Shown here piece after piece: positions 42,811 through 53,490 of a stretch of DNA of 64,000 nucleotides. The DNA is from a virus. The notes beneath the pieces are model-generated. The model was not told the DNA's origin and did no database searches. It saw only the letters and a program-made list of their open reading frames with translations. The position numbers and the translations under genes were made by a program. Location of the stretch: IMG/VR virus record IMGVR_UViG_3300019487_000023, positions 44,665 to 108,664 of that record. One strand, written 5' to 3'. Each line of letters starts with the position of its first letter. The stretch's first letter is position 1.

Positions 42811-44778
42811 ATGGCGTGGTACGACGATTGGCTAAAAAGTAGAATTAAGGGCGAAATCCAAGATCTTTTAAAGACCGATGGAGTCGACTCTTCTCCTGAC
42901 CCTCAAACCCAGGCTTCAGGGGACTCCCTACCTATTAAGCCCGAAGAGCACGATGCTTCTAAGCAAGTAGGTCGCAAAGCTATTGTCGATGACCCATATT
43001 TTGACAATACCAGCCAGCAATACAACTATAAGTACAAGCTTTCCCGCATCTCTAACAAGACCCTCAAGGACGTCTCTGTCCGTGACTGGCTTGTCTCTGC
43101 TATTATTCAGTGCCGTGTAGATACACTGCTTCGCTTCTCTCGCCCAGAACATCGTCGCTTTGAGATGGGTTTCCGTATCGTTAAGCGCGTTGAGACTGAT
43201 CACTATAGCGATGACGAACGTAATGAGATTGCAGCATTAGAGGACTTCGTTTACAACTGCGGTCGTAAAGAAGGAACCCCAGCCGATGACAGGATGTTAT
43301 TTGGTGAGTTCTTGAAACTTGTCTCTCGCGATGCCCTTACATTTGGTAACGTGGCGATTGAAAAGGTTAAGACCCGTGGCGGTGGGTTGCACAGGTTCCG
43401 TCCTCTACCTGCGGAATCCGTATATTTGATCAACAAATCTGTGTCTAAGAAGCAGATTGAAGAGACGCAAGAATCTACTGATCAGATGTACCGTAAGCCT
43501 AAGAGCGACAACGATCCTAAGGCCGATCAACAAGTTAATGAAGTACCTATCGACTACTACAAGTATGTCCAGGTCTCTTATGATAATCGTCCGCTGAATA
43601 ACTTCGGTGACGAAGACCTCATCTTTAAGCTTTTTAATCCACAAAACTTTGTGGACCTAAACGGATACTGCTATTCTCCTCTTGAACTAGCAATCATCAA
43701 TATTACTAATCACATGAATGTAGAGAATTACAATGCTAACTTCTTTACTCATGGATATGCAGCTCGCGGCATCCTTCACTTGAAGGGCACTGTTACACAA
43801 GCTCAGTTGATGAACTTCCGTCGTCAGTTCTATAACACCATCTCTGGAACGCAGAATGCATGGAGAACCCCTATCGTCTCTGGTTTGGACGAAGTTGAGT
43901 GGGTGCCAATGTCTGCCTCCGCTAAGGAGATGGAATACATCAACTTCAACAACCACTTGATGCGTATCCTTTGCGCTCAGTTCCAAATTGACCCAGTTGA
44001 ACTTGGTCTCGATTATCTTGTTTCTGCAAATGGTCGTGCACCAACCCAACAGGCAAATAACGAATATAAGATTGTCTACTCTCGTGAACGTGGTCTAGTA
44101 CCTATTCTCATGTTCATTGAGGATTTGGTGAATGGTGACATTCTTCCAGCAGTGAGCCCAGAACTTGCTAACAAGTATAAGTTCGTGTTCACTGGATATA
44201 CAGACGAAACCCCTCAGACCGAAATTGCTCAGATGCAGGCAGAAATGACTGTATGGAAGAGCATGAACGATCTTCTAGCACAGGCTCAAAAGGACAAGCT
44301 ATCCGTCCCAGGATCTGATCTTCCAATGAACCAGGCATTCTGGGCACTCATCGAGAAGAACTACACACGCGGTGAAATTCGTGAGAAATTCTTTGGAGAC
44401 AAAGATGCCTCAAAGCGCCGCGAGCTTCAATACATTCCTGGAGACCCAAGCTTCATGGCGTGGCAGCAAACTTTGCTAGCTATCGATAATGCCGAGAAGC
44501 AAGAAGAACAGATGGCTGCTCAGGCTCAGGCTCAACAGCAAGAAGCCCAAATGAAGCAGGCAGAATCTGAAACCAAGAACCGCCACGCAGAAGCTAAGCA
44601 TGGTAGGGAACAAGAGAAGCACGAGATGGAGATGGAGCAAATGAAAGCTCAAGCTGCCATGAACGCTGTAAAGCACGGATCTTTTAAGGATTCGGCTAAG
44701 CAGTTTGGTGCAACCAAAGCAGAACACATCGGCGGTAAGACTCTTGCAAACCCAATCAATGCGATGGATGACAAATAA
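42811..44778 (+). CDS. Portal protein (655 aa)
   Basis: Identified by its place after the large terminase, its size and family-like segments: VRDWLVSAIIQCRVDTLLRF, DLIFKLFNPQNFVDLNGYCY followed by SPLELAIINITNHMN and NYNANFFTHGYAARGILHLKG, typical of phage portals. The last ~100 residues are a Gln/Glu/Lys-rich coiled coil (EEQMAAQAQAQQQEAQMKQA) before the NPINAMDDK end. It forms the dodecameric DNA channel at one capsid vertex. Its transcript is predicted to be leaderless. Confidence 0.9.
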   Translation: MAWYDDWLKSRIKGEIQDLLKTDGVDSSPDPQTQASGDSLPIKPEEHDASKQVGRKAIVDDPYFDNTSQQYNYKYKLSRISNKTLKDVSVRDWLVSAIIQCRVDTLLRFSRPEHRRFEMGFRIVKRVETDHYSDDERNEIAALEDFVYNCGRKEGTPADDRMLFGEFLKLVSRDALTFGNVAIEKVKTRGGGLHRFRPLPAESVYLINKSVSKKQIEETQESTDQMYRKPKSDNDPKADQQVNEVPIDYYKYVQVSYDNRPLNNFGDEDLIFKLFNPQNFVDLNGYCYSPLELAIINITNHMNVENYNANFFTHGYAARGILHLKGTVTQAQLMNFRRQFYNTISGTQNAWRTPIVSGLDEVEWVPMSASAKEMEYINFNNHLMRILCAQFQIDPVELGLDYLVSANGRAPTQQANNEYKIVYSRERGLVPILMFIEDLVNGDILPAVSPELANKYKFVFTGYTDETPQTEIAQMQAEMTVWKSMNDLLAQAQKDKLSVPGSDLPMNQAFWALIEKNYTRGEIREKFFGDKDASKRRELQYIPGDPSFMAWQQTLLAIDNAEKQEEQMAAQAQAQQQEAQMKQAESETKNRHAEAKHGREQEKHEMEMEQMKAQAAMNAVKHGSFKDSAKQFGATKAEHIGGKTLANPINAMDDK

Positions 44779-44961: not shown

Positions 44962-45786
44962 ATGGCGCTCATTATTCTAGAAGGTTTAGACCGAACCGGC
45001 AAAAGTTCAGTTGCCCAAGATTTCCAAGCGAAGGGCTATGAACTTATTCACATGTCGGCACCTAGTAAAGAACTATCTCAACCTGGTTACACAGGCCCTT
45101 CCTACTTAGATCAAATTATTGAACTTGTGGCTAGTGCAGCTCACAAGGATATTGTTTTGGACCGTTCTCATTACGGAGAATTAGTTTGGCCACAGATTTA
45201 TGGTCGCGATCCAATGCTCACTGACGATGACATTGAGATTATTCGCGAGATTGAAGAATCTGTTGGCACCACTCGTATCCTCATGCATGATACTGATTCA
45301 GAGTCTCATTGGGCGCGCTGCGTTGCAAATAAGGAACCTCTCACAAAGGCTCAGTTTCTTCGTGCTCGTAACCTATTTGATCGCATGGCAAATAAATATA
45401 AGTTTGAAAAGAAAACCCTCCCAGAGGTTTCTGCCAACTTCCTTCAAACAGATCCACCACCAAATATCGATATGAGCAAAGTGGTTACGGTCACTAATAC
45501 AGATAACAGCACAACCATCATTTCGTATCCTCAGCCTCAACCTAAGAAACAAACAGAGATGGAGAAGCTTGAAAAGGCTAATGCCATTAACGATGTTCTT
45601 TCTAAGCGCATCATTAAGTCAAAAGGTGGAATTTACGACGAGTTAGAGACTGACGTTAGGAATTACCTCACCAAACGTCTTGGAGAAATTTTTGGACAAT
45701 CGAGTGACGATGCATTGTCGCCAGATGAGGTACAACTACTCAAATTAGTTTGCAAGAGAATGAAAGACAAGGAGAGCAAGCAATGA
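44962..45786 (+). CDS. P-loop nucleoside-monophosphate kinase-like protein (274 aa)
   Basis: Walker A LIILEGLDRTGKSSVAQDF at residues 3-21 is of the thymidylate/dNMP kinase type. VLDRSHYGELVWPQIYG supplies the DR-type nucleotide-binding element. The kinase core ends near residue 150; the rest is a Pro/Gln linker (SYPQPQPKKQTEMEKLEKAN) and a helical tail unrelated to kinases. It likely makes deoxynucleoside diphosphates, distinct from the thymidylate kinase at 51973. It is placed oddly among head genes. Confidence 0.75.
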   Translation: MALIILEGLDRTGKSSVAQDFQAKGYELIHMSAPSKELSQPGYTGPSYLDQIIELVASAAHKDIVLDRSHYGELVWPQIYGRDPMLTDDDIEIIREIEESVGTTRILMHDTDSESHWARCVANKEPLTKAQFLRARNLFDRMANKYKFEKKTLPEVSANFLQTDPPPNIDMSKVVTVTNTDNSTTIISYPQPQPKKQTEMEKLEKANAINDVLSKRIIKSKGGIYDELETDVRNYLTKRLGEIFGQSSDDALSPDEVQLLKLVCKRMKDKESKQ

Positions 45787-46776: not shown

Positions 46777-46826
46777 GCAATAAAAACTTACTTTTACTCT
46801 AGTTAATTTGTGATATAATGTTATTT

Positions 46827-47453
46827 ATGTCACAAATAGGCATTTATTGCATTAAAAACATAGAAAATAATAAGCGATATATAGGTTCGTCAAGAAACAT
46901 TCCTGGCCGTTGGCGCGTTCACAAAAGTCGCCTAAAGCTAGGTAAGCATCACTCTTCTCACCTCCAAAAGTCCTACCTTCAAAACCCTAATAAATTCGTT
47001 TACGAAATTCTAGAGTCTGTGGATGATATTTCTATGTTAGAAATTCGTGAGCAGTACTGGGTCGACTATTTTCAATCACATAAAAGTGAATATGGTTATA
47101 ATGCTGTTCGTACCGTATCAACAATCGGTTCTCATAGAATGAAAGAACGTTGGGCAAAGCCAGGTGCCAAAGAAGCTCAATCTGTTCGTATGAGAAATAT
47201 ATGTTCTAGCACAGAACATAGACAAAAATTATCTATTGGGCATATTGAATATTTTAAGAACACTGAGAATAAGTTCAAAAAGTCTTTAGAGTCACCCCAC
47301 CGCAAACCTGTAAAATGCGTTCAAACTAATCAAGTATTTGTCTCTATTAATCAAGCATCTAAAAACTTAGGTGTCTCTATTGTTAAAATAAGAGATAGTG
47401 CTAATGGCAAAAGAAAGTCAAATGGCGGAATTTCTTTTGAGTGGGCCAAATAA
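46827..47453 (+). CDS. GIY-YIG homing endonuclease (208 aa)
   Basis: GIY-YIG core GIYCIKNIENNKRYIGSS at residues 5-22, followed by RNIPGRWRVHKSRLKLG. The C-terminal NUMOD1-like KPVKCVQTNQVFVSINQASK ends at GISFEWAK. Start 46827 is chosen because TATAAT (46814-46819), preceded by TGA, lies seven bases upstream; the ATG at 46818 overlaps the -10 box. The stop overlaps the protease ATG (TAATG), so its insertion preserved the neighbour's coupling. Confidence 0.88.
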   Translation: MSQIGIYCIKNIENNKRYIGSSRNIPGRWRVHKSRLKLGKHHSSHLQKSYLQNPNKFVYEILESVDDISMLEIREQYWVDYFQSHKSEYGYNAVRTVSTIGSHRMKERWAKPGAKEAQSVRMRNICSSTEHRQKLSIGHIEYFKNTENKFKKSLESPHRKPVKCVQTNQVFVSINQASKNLGVSIVKIRDSANGKRKSNGGISFEWAK

Positions 47454-49114
47454 TGAAAAAAAGAGCTTTAGAGATTGATGGTATTTTAGGCAGTCAGTTG
47501 CGCGACACCCAAGGCGAAACGCTTTCTGTTGAGGGCGCAGACATATCTGATTTGGAGGCCGGTAGAGGCCGTTGGAACGATAATCACGGAAAAGGCTTCT
47601 TTAATTCCTTAGGTTGTATTACTACTGCAAAAAAAATCTTTAAGGTAGAAGATTGCACTGATCCACGCCACAAATATTACTGGGACATGATTAAAACCCC
47701 GTTCATATATGGACGTGGGTATTTGTTCGACGACGAAGAGCATCCTAATGCTAAAGCTGCAGCCGCTATTTTAAGAAACATTCACAAATCAGATTCACCG
47801 CTCAAACTGAAATTAAGCGTAGAAGGTGGAGTAATTTCAAGAGGAATAGCAGATAAATCTTTACTGGCAAGAACTAAAATTCATTCTTGCGCAATTACAT
47901 TTACTCCAGCGAATAATGCTACTCTGGTTGAGCCACTTAATTTAGATAAGTCTTCATATGATGAAGCTGCAGACATGGAACTCATCAAGAGCGTGCTGCA
48001 CCTTGCAGAAACTAACATCCCATCATTTCGTCATATTGCTCGTGATGCCTCTGCTAGTAAGGTTGAAAAGAACTTACAGCGCATTGCAGAATTGATGAAG
48101 GGCGATGCAGACGTTAGTTTGCCTACTAAACAAGAAATTCTAGATGCATCATTAGAGTCTAAGATTAAATCTAACGTTGCTCGCATTCATGAACTTGTTG
48201 CTGAACTGCGTGAAGAAGAGATGGAAAAAGGCTGGAAAGACGCTGCCGCTGGAGCTGCCATGATGGGCGCAGCAGCCGCTGGATTAGGTGCTAAACCAGC
48301 TAATCCTCCTGTGCCACAAGTAAAGGCTCCTGTTGCTGCAGCAACACCAGCACCTGACCTATCTAATATGGGTCCAGAGCATCAAAAAGCTTATCAAGAG
48401 ATCGCGAAGAAAAACCCTCTCCTAGGCGCAATCGGCATGATTGAATCTAGCGGCGGAAAGAACTACAAGCATTCAATGATTAATGACCCTGACTCCATGC
48501 ATCACCAACATGTAGCTGGCGGTATGTTCGGCATGATGCCAAACTCTGCGTCATTTATCCTTGCTCGTGATCCTGAGCTTGCCAAGAAGTATCCTGACCT
48601 CGTAGAGGCTGCCAAGGACATGAAGACAAATCATGGCAAGTTTACAGAGAGATTCAATGGCGATCCAAAAGCTGCTATTGAGTTTGCAGAAGCGTTTTTC
48701 AACAGAAACAAGAAGAAGACAAAGAATCGTGATATGTTGGTTCACTCGTGGAATCACGGTCTAAAGGGTACATGGGAACGTTATAAGAAGGATGGTATGG
48801 ATGCCATCACTTCAGCTCCTTATGTTCAAAACGTCCTTAAGACATTTAACAAAATGAACAAAAAGCCGCAAAAAGAAGCAGTTAAGAAGGCACTTACCGC
48901 AGGGTATGGTGGGGCAGGTAGTCCAACCTCACTTGGTGGCGGAGGGGTATTTCAAGCAGAGATGGTTGAACAAGGTCGTCCAAAGTTGAAATACGTTAAT
49001 TGTGAAAATTGTGGAAAAGAACAAGTATATGGCAAGCACCAAGTCAAATGTAGACAGTGCGGCCATAATTGGAGTCTCGAAAAGCTCTTCAGGGTAATGA
49101 AGGGAATCGAGTAA
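47453..49114 (+). CDS. Prohead protease fused to a transglycosylase-like domain and zinc ribbon (553 aa)
   Basis: Residues ~1-170 match phage prohead proteases: PFIYGRGYLFDDEEHPNAKA, LKLKLSVEGGVISRGIADKS and IHSCAITFTPANNATLVEPL. A linker (VPQVKAPVAAATPAPDLS) leads to a lysozyme/transglycosylase-like domain (LLGAIGMIESSGGKNYKHSM ... GGMFGMMPNSASFIL) with the catalytic Glu in MIESSGG. Residues ~480-507 repeat a segment of the major capsid protein (TAGYGGAGSPTSL). The C-terminus is a zinc ribbon (CENCGKEQVYGKHQVKCRQC). It should mature the capsid. Confidence 0.75.
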   Translation: MKKRALEIDGILGSQLRDTQGETLSVEGADISDLEAGRGRWNDNHGKGFFNSLGCITTAKKIFKVEDCTDPRHKYYWDMIKTPFIYGRGYLFDDEEHPNAKAAAAILRNIHKSDSPLKLKLSVEGGVISRGIADKSLLARTKIHSCAITFTPANNATLVEPLNLDKSSYDEAADMELIKSVLHLAETNIPSFRHIARDASASKVEKNLQRIAELMKGDADVSLPTKQEILDASLESKIKSNVARIHELVAELREEEMEKGWKDAAAGAAMMGAAAAGLGAKPANPPVPQVKAPVAAATPAPDLSNMGPEHQKAYQEIAKKNPLLGAIGMIESSGGKNYKHSMINDPDSMHHQHVAGGMFGMMPNSASFILARDPELAKKYPDLVEAAKDMKTNHGKFTERFNGDPKAAIEFAEAFFNRNKKKTKNRDMLVHSWNHGLKGTWERYKKDGMDAITSAPYVQNVLKTFNKMNKKPQKEAVKKALTAGYGGAGSPTSLGGGGVFQAEMVEQGRPKLKYVNCENCGKEQVYGKHQVKCRQCGHNWSLEKLFRVMKGIE

Positions 49115-49201
49115 AGGTACAGGTGGGCCCATGGTGTTTAACTCTGGGGCCATGGTATAGTTAATCATAATTGAGTTTTACTCATCTATAGGAGAGGAAA
49201 A
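49115..49201 (+). promoter_or_regulatory. Intergenic region with GGGCCCATGG/GGGGCCATGG repeat
   Basis: An imperfect repeat of GGGCCCATGG and GGGGCCATGG surrounds 49123-49156 and can fold on itself. It is followed by an A+T-rich stretch with TATAGT/CATAAT elements and AGGAGAGG before ATG 49202. It probably contains the promoter for the decoration, scaffold and capsid genes. Confidence 0.4.
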
Positions 49202-49603
49202 ATGGCACAATCTAAAGCAATTCTATTCAAGCTTGCCCGTAACGCGCAGGTGCTCGGCATGACTGTGGTTTCACAGTCGGAGACCGCTGTCGTTATTGAC
49301 AACGGCTCGAACGATCTCACAATCAGCTATGTTGACGCAGTATTCACCCCATCTGTCATGGGCGGCGTGGATCCTCAGACTTCCCCATTCTTGGGCATTG
49401 GCGTTGGTAATCCAGGCCAAGTGAAGATTAAGTCTGCTATCAATACTGGCGGCACTGCTGCTGACGTTCTTGATTCGCTAACTGCTGCTAAGGTTCTAGC
49501 TATGTGCGCTGCACTTGCAAACGACCTTATCATCGAAAATTCTGACGCTTCTTTCAGCGGTCAAATTCGCGGACACAGTGATCGTATCGGCCTCGGTCAG
49601 TAA
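49202..49603 (+). CDS. Putative head decoration/structural protein (133 aa)
   Basis: AGGAGAGG precedes the ATG. The sequence (MAQSKAILFKLARNAQVLGM; GGVDPQTSPFLGIGVGNPGQ; SFSGQIRGHSDRIGLGQ) is small, Gly/Ser/Ala-rich and compact, without catalytic motifs. It lies between the protease and scaffold/capsid genes, the usual place of a decoration or minor head protein. No named family is recognised. Confidence 0.6.
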   Translation: MAQSKAILFKLARNAQVLGMTVVSQSETAVVIDNGSNDLTISYVDAVFTPSVMGGVDPQTSPFLGIGVGNPGQVKIKSAINTGGTAADVLDSLTAAKVLAMCAALANDLIIENSDASFSGQIRGHSDRIGLGQ

Positions 49604-49631
49604 TCACTTTTAACGAAGGAGAAATCTGACT

Positions 49632-50411
49632 ATGGACGCAGAAATCAAAAAGAGTCTTACAGACCTGATTGATGAAACTTTGATGGAGCTCGAAGAGCTT
49701 AAGAAGTCAAAGTTCTCTGCTGCTGAGATCAAGATCGAAGGTCCTGGCGACAGCCACTTAGCTGGCAAGCCTGTGAACGGCGATCTTCATGCGAAGGCAG
49801 AAGACAAGAAGGACGAAGACGAAGAAGATAAAGACGATGACAAGGATATGGATAAGGGCGAGAACGAAAAAGCCGATCCAAATGCAGGTCATCACCAGCC
49901 AGTAGCTAAAGGCGAAAATGAGAAGGCAGACCCAAACGGTGGCCATCATCAGCCAGTAGCGAAAGCTGAGGACAAGAAGAAAGACGACGACAAAGACGAC
50001 GAGAAGAAGGATAAGGATGCCAAGGGCGGAGAACGCCATGAAGCCGAAGAGAAAAAGGCTATTGGTAAACTTGCTGACCTCGCCGGAATGAAGAAGTCCG
50101 AAGAAGAAATGCAAAGCTTGATGAAGAGCTATTTTGACGAGCGCGTAAAGCCTCTTGAAGATTCTCTCGCAAGCATTATGGATCTTGTCAAGAAAATTGC
50201 TGATCAGCCAGTGGCTCCTAAGGGTGCTACGGTTCGTACGGTTCCGTTGTTAAAGTCTACGGAAGAAGTTGAGACCCTTTCTAAGGCACAAGTTGCTACC
50301 AAGCTATTTGACCTTAAGAAGAGCGGATCTGCAGTTGATTCCTTGGATGTGACCAAGGCTGAAATGGGCCAAGATCTAGACACTATTATCAGGAAGTACA
50401 AACTTTCGTAA
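49632..50411 (+). CDS. Capsid scaffold protein (259 aa)
   Basis: Placed directly before the major capsid gene. The central region is extremely charged, mostly Asp/Glu/Lys (DKKDEDEEDKDDDKDMDKG), with a tandem 18-residue repeat (GENEKADPNAGHHQPVAK twice, ending 49971). The C-terminal half is helical (ASIMDLVKKIADQPVAPKG). Low complexity and helical character suit scaffolds, which are removed by the prohead protease before DNA packaging. AAGGAG precedes the ATG. Confidence 0.75.
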   Translation: MDAEIKKSLTDLIDETLMELEELKKSKFSAAEIKIEGPGDSHLAGKPVNGDLHAKAEDKKDEDEEDKDDDKDMDKGENEKADPNAGHHQPVAKGENEKADPNGGHHQPVAKAEDKKKDDDKDDEKKDKDAKGGERHEAEEKKAIGKLADLAGMKKSEEEMQSLMKSYFDERVKPLEDSLASIMDLVKKIADQPVAPKGATVRTVPLLKSTEEVETLSKAQVATKLFDLKKSGSAVDSLDVTKAEMGQDLDTIIRKYKLS

Positions 50412-50429
50412 TCAAAGGAGAGAACGAAA

Positions 50430-51878
50430 ATGAACGACGCACTTAACCAAGTATTGCAAGGCCTAGATCAGGGTCTCGTGTCGGGCGACGACATCGAGAA
50501 ACTGAATAAGGCTATCACCGCCGGTTACGGTGGTGCAGGCAAGCCTACTGACCTCGTCTATGGCGGAGTCCTTCAGGCTGAATCTCTCGAAGCTACGCTC
50601 AAGAGCGTTACCTTCGACATGAAGAACCTCAAGCTATGGCCAGCCATTTCGGTTGACAAAGCTTACAACCTATTCGAACAGTACAATCGTTTGATCTCGT
50701 ACGGTTCTGATAGCGCGCCATATATCGGCGAAGGTGGAGCTCCTCAAGAGGAAGATTCGACCTACGTACGTGATGGTCAGAAGATCGTGTTCTTCGGTAC
50801 TCGCCGTAGGGTCTCTCACCAGATGACCTTGGTTCGTACCACTGTGGGCGACATTGTTGCTCAACAGGCAAAAGAAGGCACGATGCATCTTCTCAAGAAC
50901 ATCGAGCGTGAAATGTATTGGGGTCATGCCCACTTCATGAATCAGCAAACCGGAGCTATGAACGGCTCTCCTGCTGACCTTCCAACTAATTCGATCGCTA
51001 TGAGCGGCGTGCTTCAGCAGCTTCTCTTCGGCGACACCGACGTTCTACAACGTTCTGGTGACTTCGAAGGATACGGCGACGCCCGTTCCATCGCTCAGGA
51101 CCTAGCCGGTAACGTGCTAGCCCAGGACGATATCGAACAGCTTGCTGTTATCGCCCTTGAGAACTTCGGTTCTCCATCGGAACTTCATATCGAACCAGCC
51201 GCTCTTTCGGCTTTCGTTAAGCAGTTCTATCCTCAGTTCCGTTCTGCCCCAGGCTTGAGCGGTCAGACTGTTGGCTACGACGTTGCAAAGGTGACCACCA
51301 CCGCTGGTAACGTTGACTTGAAGCCAAACTTGTTCCTACGCCCACGTGCAGGCGCTCGCGCTCTTGCCGTGAATGCTCAGGCCCCAGCTGCATCCTTCAC
51401 CGTAACTGGTGCAGGCGCTGGTACTGGTTCTCCTTTGGCCGCTGGTGCTTACCAGGTTAAGGTCACTGCTGTGAACGATGCGGGCGAAGGCGCTCCTGTC
51501 CAGGAAGCTGGCGGCGTGACCATCTCTGCTAACCAGAACATTGACCTCACCATCGGCTCTATCCCTGCCGGCGTTAAGTACTTCAAAGTGTACATGAGCG
51601 CTGTCGGCGGTGCAGTTGGTACCGAAAAGTTCGTCGGTAACATTGCAAACCGTGGTGCTGGCGTCTACCGTGTAAACGGTTCGAAGATGCCAGGTCTTGG
51701 TGAAGCATTCTTGCTCGATCTTGGTGCCGAGTGCATGAAGTTCAAGCAACTTGCTCCTCTAAGCAAGATCAACTTCGCTATTGTTACGACCGCACTTGAG
51801 TTCGCGATCGTGTTGTACGGAGCTCTCTTCGTCTACACGCCACGTTACAACTGCGTGTTCAAGAACATGGGCAAGTAA
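50430..51878 (+). CDS. Major capsid protein with inserted Ig-like domain (482 aa)
   Basis: Strong Shine-Dalgarno (AAAGGAGAG). HK97-fold features: an N-terminal region ending LQAESLEATLKSV, then EQYNRLISYGSDSAPYIGEG, HLLKNIEREMYWGHAHFMN (spine-helix-like) and a C-terminal beta segment FAIVLYGALFVYTPRYNCVF. Residues ~315-410 are an Ig/FN3-like insertion (AGAYQVKVTAVNDAGEGAPV ... GVKYFKVYMSAVGG). Residues 28-55 match a segment near the end of the protease. The N-terminal part is probably cleaved. A strong terminator follows. Confidence 0.9.
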   Translation: MNDALNQVLQGLDQGLVSGDDIEKLNKAITAGYGGAGKPTDLVYGGVLQAESLEATLKSVTFDMKNLKLWPAISVDKAYNLFEQYNRLISYGSDSAPYIGEGGAPQEEDSTYVRDGQKIVFFGTRRRVSHQMTLVRTTVGDIVAQQAKEGTMHLLKNIEREMYWGHAHFMNQQTGAMNGSPADLPTNSIAMSGVLQQLLFGDTDVLQRSGDFEGYGDARSIAQDLAGNVLAQDDIEQLAVIALENFGSPSELHIEPAALSAFVKQFYPQFRSAPGLSGQTVGYDVAKVTTTAGNVDLKPNLFLRPRAGARALAVNAQAPAASFTVTGAGAGTGSPLAAGAYQVKVTAVNDAGEGAPVQEAGGVTISANQNIDLTIGSIPAGVKYFKVYMSAVGGAVGTEKFVGNIANRGAGVYRVNGSKMPGLGEAFLLDLGAECMKFKQLAPLSKINFAIVTTALEFAIVLYGALFVYTPRYNCVFKNMGK

Positions 51879-51972: not shown

Positions 51973-52632
51973 ATGAAAATGGCACGTTATATCTGTCTCG
52001 AAGGCACTGAAGGCGTAGGTAAAACCACTCAAACCCAAAAGTTGGTTGATTTCTTACGAAGCAAAGGATATAGCGTTCTTCAAACGAAAGAACCTGGGAC
52101 ACCTCTATCTCCCCTAACGATGCAACTCAGGGCCATCATGCTTGACAAACAGTACGATGCAGAGCTCACTGCTCCTGCTCGTGAATTAGTGAGTCAAGCG
52201 ATTCGTTCAATCCATCTTGAAAAAGTAGTGCAACCTGCCTTGTCGAAGTACGACTTCATCGTACAAGATAGAGGCATCTTGTCTGGTTTCTCTTATGGAA
52301 CAGCCTGTGGGAATGACCCAGATTGGCTCCAGGAGCTCACTGCGAAGATCGTCCCTGCAGACATGTATATGAACAACGGGAAGCTCCTGTATGACGATGT
52401 TATCGTTTTAACAGGTAATATATCTAAAGGGCTTGAACGTGCGCTCTCTTCTAAACAGGAGTTTGCTGCAGGGGATGCCATGGAAGCACGCGGCACGTCA
52501 TTTTTGAACTCGGCGTCCGTTAACATGATTAACATGTCAAAAGATTTTAATGCGAATGTAATTTCGGTTGATGGTAAGAACATTGACCAAGTATTCGCAG
52601 ACATTTCGGCAGCTCTTCATATCGAGGAATAA
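51973..52632 (+). CDS. tmk: Thymidylate kinase (219 aa)
   Basis: Converts dTMP to dTDP. The P-loop ICLEGTEGVGKTTQTQKLVD at residues 6-25 and VLQTKEPGTPLSPLTMQLRA carry the family's EPG element, and YDFIVQDRGILSGFSYG contains the DR motif of the nucleotide site. The length is standard for bacterial-type TMK. It has its own leaderless-type promoter. With dUTPase upstream in the window it forms a dTTP-supply path. An alternative ATG at 51979 (MARYICLEG) is possible. Confidence 0.93.
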   Translation: MKMARYICLEGTEGVGKTTQTQKLVDFLRSKGYSVLQTKEPGTPLSPLTMQLRAIMLDKQYDAELTAPARELVSQAIRSIHLEKVVQPALSKYDFIVQDRGILSGFSYGTACGNDPDWLQELTAKIVPADMYMNNGKLLYDDVIVLTGNISKGLERALSSKQEFAAGDAMEARGTSFLNSASVNMINMSKDFNANVISVDGKNIDQVFADISAALHIEE

Positions 52633-52635
52633 GCA

Positions 52636-53490
52636 GTGGCAAAAACTAAAAAGTCGCCAAAGTTCAAACGTTATGCTGCCCCAGCCAATCAACCAAAAAT
52701 TCTAGTATTCGACATTGAAACTGCTCCTATTATCGCCCATGTGTGGGGATTGTGGGAGAACAATGTTGGATTGAATCAAGTCGAGTGCGATTGGCATGTC
52801 TTGAGTTGGAGTGCGAAGTGGAAAGGCGCTCCAGAGAATGAAGTTATGTACATGGATCAACGCCATGCGAAGCGCGTTGATGATGACACAGAGATCCTTA
52901 CAGCGATCTGGGAACTGTTAGATGAAGCAGATGTTGTCATTACACAGAACGGTAAGAAGTTCGACCAGAAAAAGTTGAACGCTCGTTTTGTTATCAAGAA
53001 GATCAAAGACCGCCATCCTCCTAGCAGCTTTAAGCATGAGGACACGAGGCAGATTGCGTCTAGGCATTTTGCATTTACGAGCAACAAGCTTGAATATATG
53101 ACCGACAAGCTATGCACTAAATACAAGAAGCAGAAGCACAAGAAGTTCCCTGGTCATGAAATGTGGACAGAATGCTTGAAGGGTAATCTTGAAGCGTGGA
53201 ATGAGATGGAAGAATATAACAAGTATGACGTTCTAGCTCTAGAAGAGCTATATAACATATTGGCACCGTGGAGTGGAAACACGGGAGTGAATTTCAACCT
53301 TTACAGCGACGACCTCACCAATGTGTGTAAATGCGGTAGCAGCTCCATTATCAAGAATGGCTTCTATCATACGACTGTTGGTAGATACCAACGATACAAG
53401 TGCAAGGACTGCGGCGCTGAATCCCGCGATAGGAGCAATCTCCTTCCTAAGGACAAGCGAGAGGCATTGCAGACAAGCACCGTGAGGTAA
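52636..53490 (+). CDS. DnaQ-like 3'-5' exonuclease with C-terminal zinc ribbon (284 aa)
   Basis: Exonuclease motif I is ILVFDIETAPI (D-x-E); motif II lies near ADVVITQNGKKFDQKKLNAR, and motif III in EYNKYDVLALEELYNIL. The C-terminal ~60 residues hold a zinc ribbon (VCKCGSSSIIKNGFYHTTVG, then RYKCKDCGAESRD) like those in IS1-type transposases. It may proofread for the split polymerase, whose genes lack an obvious exonuclease domain, or process DNA ends. GTG start four bases after the kinase stop. Confidence 0.82.
   Translation: MAKTKKSPKFKRYAAPANQPKILVFDIETAPIIAHVWGLWENNVGLNQVECDWHVLSWSAKWKGAPENEVMYMDQRHAKRVDDDTEILTAIWELLDEADVVITQNGKKFDQKKLNARFVIKKIKDRHPPSSFKHEDTRQIASRHFAFTSNKLEYMTDKLCTKYKKQKHKKFPGHEMWTECLKGNLEAWNEMEEYNKYDVLALEELYNILAPWSGNTGVNFNLYSDDLTNVCKCGSSSIIKNGFYHTTVGRYQRYKCKDCGAESRDRSNLLPKDKREALQTSTVR

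Follow-up and report, generated by a model that had tools for sequence, protein, structure and literature searches.

In herpesviruses (pUL26), phage lambda (C/Nu3) and phage P2 (gpO), the prohead protease bears the sequence of an assembly protein, by which it enters the procapsid, and it cuts itself. The gp21 protein of phage T4 is likewise a prohead protease that cuts itself at the motifs of its substrates. In phage SPN3US, the protease gp245 processes itself, shedding a C-terminal propeptide of 64 residues by a cut at the type of site that its substrates contain (PMC10052503). Here we analysed a 64,000-nucleotide stretch of viral DNA, referred to as the window (IMG/VR record IMGVR_UViG_3300019487_000023, positions 44,665 to 108,664), in which the prohead protease carries, close to its C-terminus, a segment that is also found near the N-terminus of the major capsid protein. 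The shared segment begins at a putative maturation cleavage site and continues into what would be the mature capsid N-terminus.

The two versions of the segment, K483-E510 of the protease (KALTAGYGGAGSPTSLGGGGVFQAEMVE) and K27-E54 of the capsid protein (KAITAGYGGAGKPTDLVYGGVLQAESLE), align without gaps and are identical at 20 of 28 positions, and the codon is the same at 5 of these 20 shared residues. A preliminary description of this DNA had reported the 20 of 28 match and the widely differing codons, which we confirmed; its residue numbers were off by 1-3, while the remaining description was exact, and its names for the two products, prohead protease and capsid, agree with their matches to phrog_1028 and phrog_752 (Table 1). 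The local alignment of protease and capsid scored 105, against a best score of 50 when the capsid N-terminus was shuffled 200 times, and none of 1000 shuffles attained 105. When the 108,664-base parent record, which is a virus record that may be incomplete, was searched with the capsid, the capsid itself and the protease copy were the sole matches (E = 2.4e-7 for the copy), and the segment alone matched two places in total (E = 2.1e-9 for the protease copy). These shuffles and E values rule out a chance likeness, and the capsid and segment searches found no third copy among the known genes of the parent record.

Scans of IMG/VR with the capsid and the protease gave 91 loci and, from these, 61 distinct protease/capsid pairs for comparison. 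Each of these pairs has the copy, as does every protease whose C-terminal part is intact, with a mean ungapped identity of 64% over 27 positions; the few low identities result from deletion of one or two residues in the protease copy. At the 1034 positions where the two proteins share a residue, 36.2% of the codons are identical, equal to the 36.2% expected from the codon usage of these genes. Recent duplication or gene conversion is thereby ruled out and, since synonymous codons are at random expectation and the copy is found in all pairs, the likeness is kept by selection at the protein level, as the preliminary description had supposed. That description had named absence of the copy from relatives as grounds for abandoning its proposal, which the observed conservation leaves standing.

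The segment is the constant element of these proteases, while the domains before and after it change among relatives, whose proteases range from 284 to 1007 residues in length. Their middle domain consists of HEAT repeats in loci L053, L074 and L077, is GNAT-like in L026 and is almost missing in L067, and a long stretch lies between the segment and the C-terminal zinc ribbon in L042. With a catalytic domain and a segment that both stay constant on either side, the position of the middle domain resembles a slot for cargo proteins that travel in the head. In six loci (L019, L023, L024, L025, L026 and L032) the protease gene lies on the strand opposite to the capsid gene and the segment is kept.

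The left boundary of the likeness is sharp. Across the 61 pairs it starts at an invariant Lys, extends for ~27 residues downstream and fades after about P27′ (counted from the putative scissile bond, with the Lys as P1). P1 is Lys in 61 of 61 proteases and capsids alike, P1′ is Ala in 60 and 61, and P4′-P5′ is Ala-Gly in all. The fraction of pairs with identical residues is 1.00 at P1, 0.98 at P1′, 1.00 at P4′-P5′, 0.93 at P12′ and P22′ and 0.90 at P24′, compared to ≤0.13 upstream at P4-P16; P3 is identical in 0.56 of the pairs and is hydrophobic in both proteins.

This Lys has a counterpart in known capsid structures. The full phage-812-type capsid chain (5lii, 463 residues) reads ...DVVK-SFQTGYG..., and entries 9row/9rox/9roz contain a 439-residue chain starting SFQTGYG, that is, at S25 directly after the homologous K24. 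Thus, going by the deposited chain, the propeptide of a related mature capsid ends with that Lys and, since the likeness runs from the Lys onward, the common module comprises a cleavage site and the mature capsid N-terminus, not the propeptide. The capsid of this phage contains a Lys/small-residue site homologous to the phage-812-type one and, by this homology to the deposited chain start of a distant relative, would lose residues 1-27 through a cut between K27 and A28. Cleavage after the terminal Glu of the segment (QAE), as in T4 or phiKZ, is less likely, since both the likeness and the 9row chain start at the Lys, and a second site could lie there.

Comparison of cultured phages revealed a significant common segment in 20 of 22 (0 of 1000 shuffles), namely SPO1, Twort, A5W, S2G3, Stau2, PMS2, P100, EFDG1, Semele, 3-521, SAC12B, Lb338-1, Bp8p-C, Troll, Exiguobacterium phage 132, LysYB1, Goe26, AVP, Morganella phage Mecenats66 and Myxococcus phage Mx1, although in 3-521, SAC12B and Lb338-1 the match needs gaps and is weaker. 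The best protease-capsid match lacked the segment in Bacteroides phage DAC19 and in Chryseobacterium phage MA9V-3, for which the protease is a guess from gene position, and no neighbouring gene in these two carries it. The preliminary description had called the sharing between enzyme and substrate unusual, which is wrong for this lineage, where it is the rule in SPO1/Twort/Listeria-type phages. The proteases of SPO1 and the Staphylococcus phages have the segment right behind the catalytic domain and another C-terminal region in place of the zinc ribbon, and the tail after the Lys has 80-96 residues in 14 Herelleviridae proteases and 74 in this phage. The Mx1 protease (L095, 5003-8722) has 1239 residues, with the segment at residue 242 followed by about 1000 residues that contain a weak PI3/4-kinase-like match.

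Each lineage has its own version of the segment, which is found in both its proteins: KSLEAGYEVDPEKMEGGDVFRKESL (protease) and KALEAGHTVNPLDLEGGGAFRVESL (capsid) in SPO1, KSFLTGHGTSPDTQVDAGALRKEEI and KSFQTGYGITPDTQIDAGALRREIL in A5W, and KAMEAGNFNAAPSTLQGGSALQSES and KAMEAGNFNAKPSTLVQGSAMQIED in Mx1. Own protease-capsid pairs had a mean score of 96.6, against 65.2 for other pairs, a difference attained by 0 of 100,000 permutations; these statistics ignore phylogeny, and the excess, confounded with the shared ancestry of both genes, is parallel divergence and no proof of contact. When the SPO1 protease sequence was searched against the PDB, the SPO1 capsid was the sole match, via the segment (E = 2.4e-6), and the protease of Staphylococcus phage S2G3 similarly found a phage-812-type capsid (E = 9e-5).

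We propose, and consider somewhat probable, that the protease reads an extended prime-side sequence, cutting the capsid between K27 and A28 and itself between K483 and A484. The module recognised would consist of a P1 Lys, a small P1′ residue (Ala, Ser, Gly or Thr) and about 26 residues of mature capsid N-terminus, a long stretch that an extended surface of the protease may bind. The cut in the capsid would remove a 27-residue propeptide, and the self-cut would release a 74-residue C-terminal tail made up of the segment and the zinc ribbon. Before the cut, this tail may hold the protease in the prohead, and the catalytic part would be free afterwards. We infer self-cleavage, extended prime-side recognition and this tether-and-release. 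A shared cleavage site is the likeliest reading in view of a boundary at a Lys that is a maturation site in a relative, the small P1′ residue, the constant size of the tail and the self-removal of a C-terminal propeptide in SPN3US. The 27 prime-side residues would then be either a long stretch that the protease reads, which we prefer, or a stretch with a second function, docking in the manner of the capsid N-arm. The segment lies in a region predicted to be disordered by AlphaFold2 (residues 478-513, predicted local distance difference test (pLDDT) below 50), adjoining a ribbon predicted to be well folded, and both this flexibility and its retention while the flanking domains vary support a shared cleavage site. 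Of the three roles that the preliminary description had put forward, a cleavage-site region is the best supported, the likeness starting at the Lys whose homologue precedes the 9row mature chain.

Several points weigh against a shared cleavage site. The self-cut at the segment is a prediction in all these proteases, and 9row shows merely what its depositors entered as the chain. Cleavage motifs of the T4 and phiKZ types are short and lie on the non-prime side, whereas prime-side conservation over 27 residues is unusual. The scaffold lacks the module, so that another motif must serve if the scaffold is digested. The tails of Mx1 and L042 comprise 997 and about 620 residues, and one cut would therefore release most of the protein. 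Scaffold-capsid likeness was within the shuffle range in all 23 phages compared; with no copy in the scaffold of any tested phage and no third copy in the known genome, the segment is not a tag of all core proteins and a general cleavage tag on them is ruled out.

The main alternative, although we regard it as doubtful, is that the segment is a mimic of the mature N-arm which plugs into neighbouring capsid subunits, or into a scaffold or portal partner. Such docking would bring the protease into the prohead, the tail may stay as a minor part of the mature shell, and cleavage at the Lys would not be required. The shared part being the mature capsid N-terminus and not the propeptide speaks for docking, and the protease has been reported in virions of fRuSau02, CKA15 and JS1 and is annotated as 'virion component' in A5W and Twort, but virion detection is silent on which part of the protease is retained. 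The copies also track each other across lineages, with the phylogenetic confounding given above. However, the protease copy of this clade does not retain several residues that are near-invariant or invariant in the capsid (K/R at P11′, D at P14′, L at P15′ and Y at P17′), which argues against its occupying the same lattice site. A tag binding a common partner, as the preliminary description had also suggested, is a possible role. Docking and cleavage could both hold, with the tether first and the cut later.

We think it unlikely, if conceivable, that the tail, whose new N-terminus after the self-cut would resemble the one of the mature capsid, occupies N-arm positions in the shell, such as those surrounding the portal vertex. 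If so, one gene would give rise to both a maturation enzyme and a minor capsid part, and different phages would have spliced cargo domains (transglycosylase, HEAT repeats or acetyltransferase) ahead of the tail. An intramolecular pseudo-substrate, with the segment occupying the active site of its own enzyme and blocking it before assembly, is improbable. The segment is substrate-like, lies in a flexible region able to reach the active site and has an invariant P1 Lys, but a genuine cleavage sequence would be a poor long-term inhibitor and hundreds of residues lie between the segment and the catalytic domain in several relatives. The predicted disorder of residues 478-513 likewise lends no support to the inhibitor role raised in the preliminary description, a low-confidence stretch being not decisive. 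Finally, a functionless relic of segmental duplication, or of repeated gene conversion between neighbours, would suit the closeness of the copies, which in most genomes are about 2 kb or less apart, but is very improbable and close to refuted, given codons without a trace of recent conversion, a copy in 61 of 61 pairs and across the Herelleviridae despite turnover of the flanking domains, and its retention in the six loci with an inverted protease gene.

In the protease, a helical linker joins the catalytic domain (about residues 10-165) to a middle domain, behind which come the segment and a C4 zinc ribbon (Table 1). Relatives suggest that it starts at the ATG at 47453 rather than at the GTG. 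All 55 members of the protease alignment (A1) matched phrog_1028, while Pfam Peptidase_S78 was matched by the SPO1 and S2G3 proteases and not by that of this phage; the motif [FL]S[VI]EG is also found in the SPO1 and Staphylococcus phage proteases that match Peptidase_S78. The best Foldseek match of the protease model was weak, to pseudorabies pUL26N (E = 0.047), and the middle domain, which had no phmmer match in the PDB, weakly matched MltC (E = 0.44); these weak structural neighbours are consistent with the protease domain assignment. Pfam matches to zinc ribbons were weak and occurred in relatives of the protease. Upstream, a GIY-YIG homing endonuclease with a NUMOD-like domain (46818-47453; Pfam E = 3.3e-10 and 2.9e-7) lies immediately before the protease gene and touches its start.

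Table 1 Features of the head gene block discussed in the text, in window coordinates.
Feature	Position	Strand	Basis or remark
Prohead (head maturation) protease gene, 557 residues from GTG	47441..49114	+	phrog_1028 'head maturation protease', E = 2.4e-10
Invariant His49 (NDNHG), presumed catalytic	47585..47587	+	Invariant in 55 proteases; role by analogy to S78-type proteases
Invariant Ser126 (LSVEGG), presumed nucleophile	47816..47818	+	Invariant in 55 proteases
SLT (lytic transglycosylase)-like middle domain, variable in relatives	48368..48865	+	Pfam SLT, E = 0.034; best relative 8.2e-5
Protease-borne capsid-like segment, K483-E510	48887..48970	+	K483 codon 48887-48889; predicted scissile bond K483-A484, between 48889 and 48890
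C-terminal C4 zinc-ribbon-like domain (C521, C524, C537, C540)	48992..49111	+	Four Cys invariant in 55 sequences; pLDDT about 90
Putative scaffolding protein, between protease and capsid, without the segment	49632..50411	+	Gene order as SPO1 3.2-3.3-6.1
Major capsid protein, 482 residues	50430..51878	+	phrog_752 'major head protein', E = 1.8e-54; PDB 9vel (SPO1 gp6.1), E = 3.1e-57
Predicted capsid N-terminal propeptide, residues 1-27	50430..50510	+	Homologous to 24 residues that the mature phage-812-type chain 9row lacks
Segment in the capsid protein, K27-E54	50508..50591	+	K27 codon 50508-50510; predicted scissile bond K27-A28

The capsid matched 5lii and 9row more weakly than 9vel and belongs to the SPO1/Twort/phage-812 family; we set aside its AlphaFold2 model, of which the N-terminal half was poor (pLDDT 25-50). 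The genes run from the portal (42811) through the protease (47441) and the scaffold-like gene (49632) to the capsid (50430), corresponding to 3.1-3.2-3.3-6.1 in SPO1, with additional genes between portal and protease in this phage. In the putative scaffold, a strongly charged stretch of K, D and E bears near repeats, and GENEKADPN[AG]GHHQPVAK is present twice. Two thymidylate-kinase-like genes flank the head gene block (44962-45786 and 51973-52632, both phrog_761), and downstream of the second lies a gene for an RNase_H_2-type exonuclease-like protein (52636-53490) with a C-terminal zinc-finger-like CxC...CxxC.

Among the large SPO1/Twort/Listeria-type phages are several with uses in therapy or food safety. 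For this group, the segment provides a sequence handle on how the protease enters the prohead, recognises its substrate and is switched on, and it predicts capsid and protease cleavage sites for hundreds of sequenced phages. Since P1 is Lys, the predicted cut would be indistinguishable from a tryptic one in trypsin-based proteomics, and it may have been overlooked for this reason.

Comparison with described proteases indicates what is shared with them and what differs. The segment is not a general property of phage proteases, which is ruled out by T4, HK97, DAC19 and MA9V-3: the T4 protease and capsid have no significant common segment (38 of 500 shuffles attained the score), and for HK97 the score was weak (4 of 500 shuffles) and came from a gapped alignment of another region, which we regard as unrelated. 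SPN3US gp245, of the phiKZ type, is likewise a prohead protease, but its motif comprises a few non-prime residues ending in Glu, compared with a P1 Lys and ~27 prime-side residues here. The Herelleviridae proteases (SPO1 gp3.2, A5W Pro and Listeria phage P100 gp15) have the same gene order, the same capsid family and the capsid-like segment after the catalytic domain, although they have about 250-270 residues, with the segment right behind that domain, and no zinc ribbon, whereas this phage has the SLT-like insertion and the ribbon. We found no description of the ~28-residue sharing between protease and capsid across the Herelleviridae in annotation or open-licence papers, although older subscription papers could have one. 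In herpesviruses, lambda and P2 the sequence is shared with the scaffold and the genes are nested or fused, whereas in this phage it is shared with the major capsid protein and each copy has a gene of its own. Thus, proteases that share scaffold sequence and that cut themselves at substrate motifs are known, while sharing with the major capsid protein across the Herelleviridae is apparently new.

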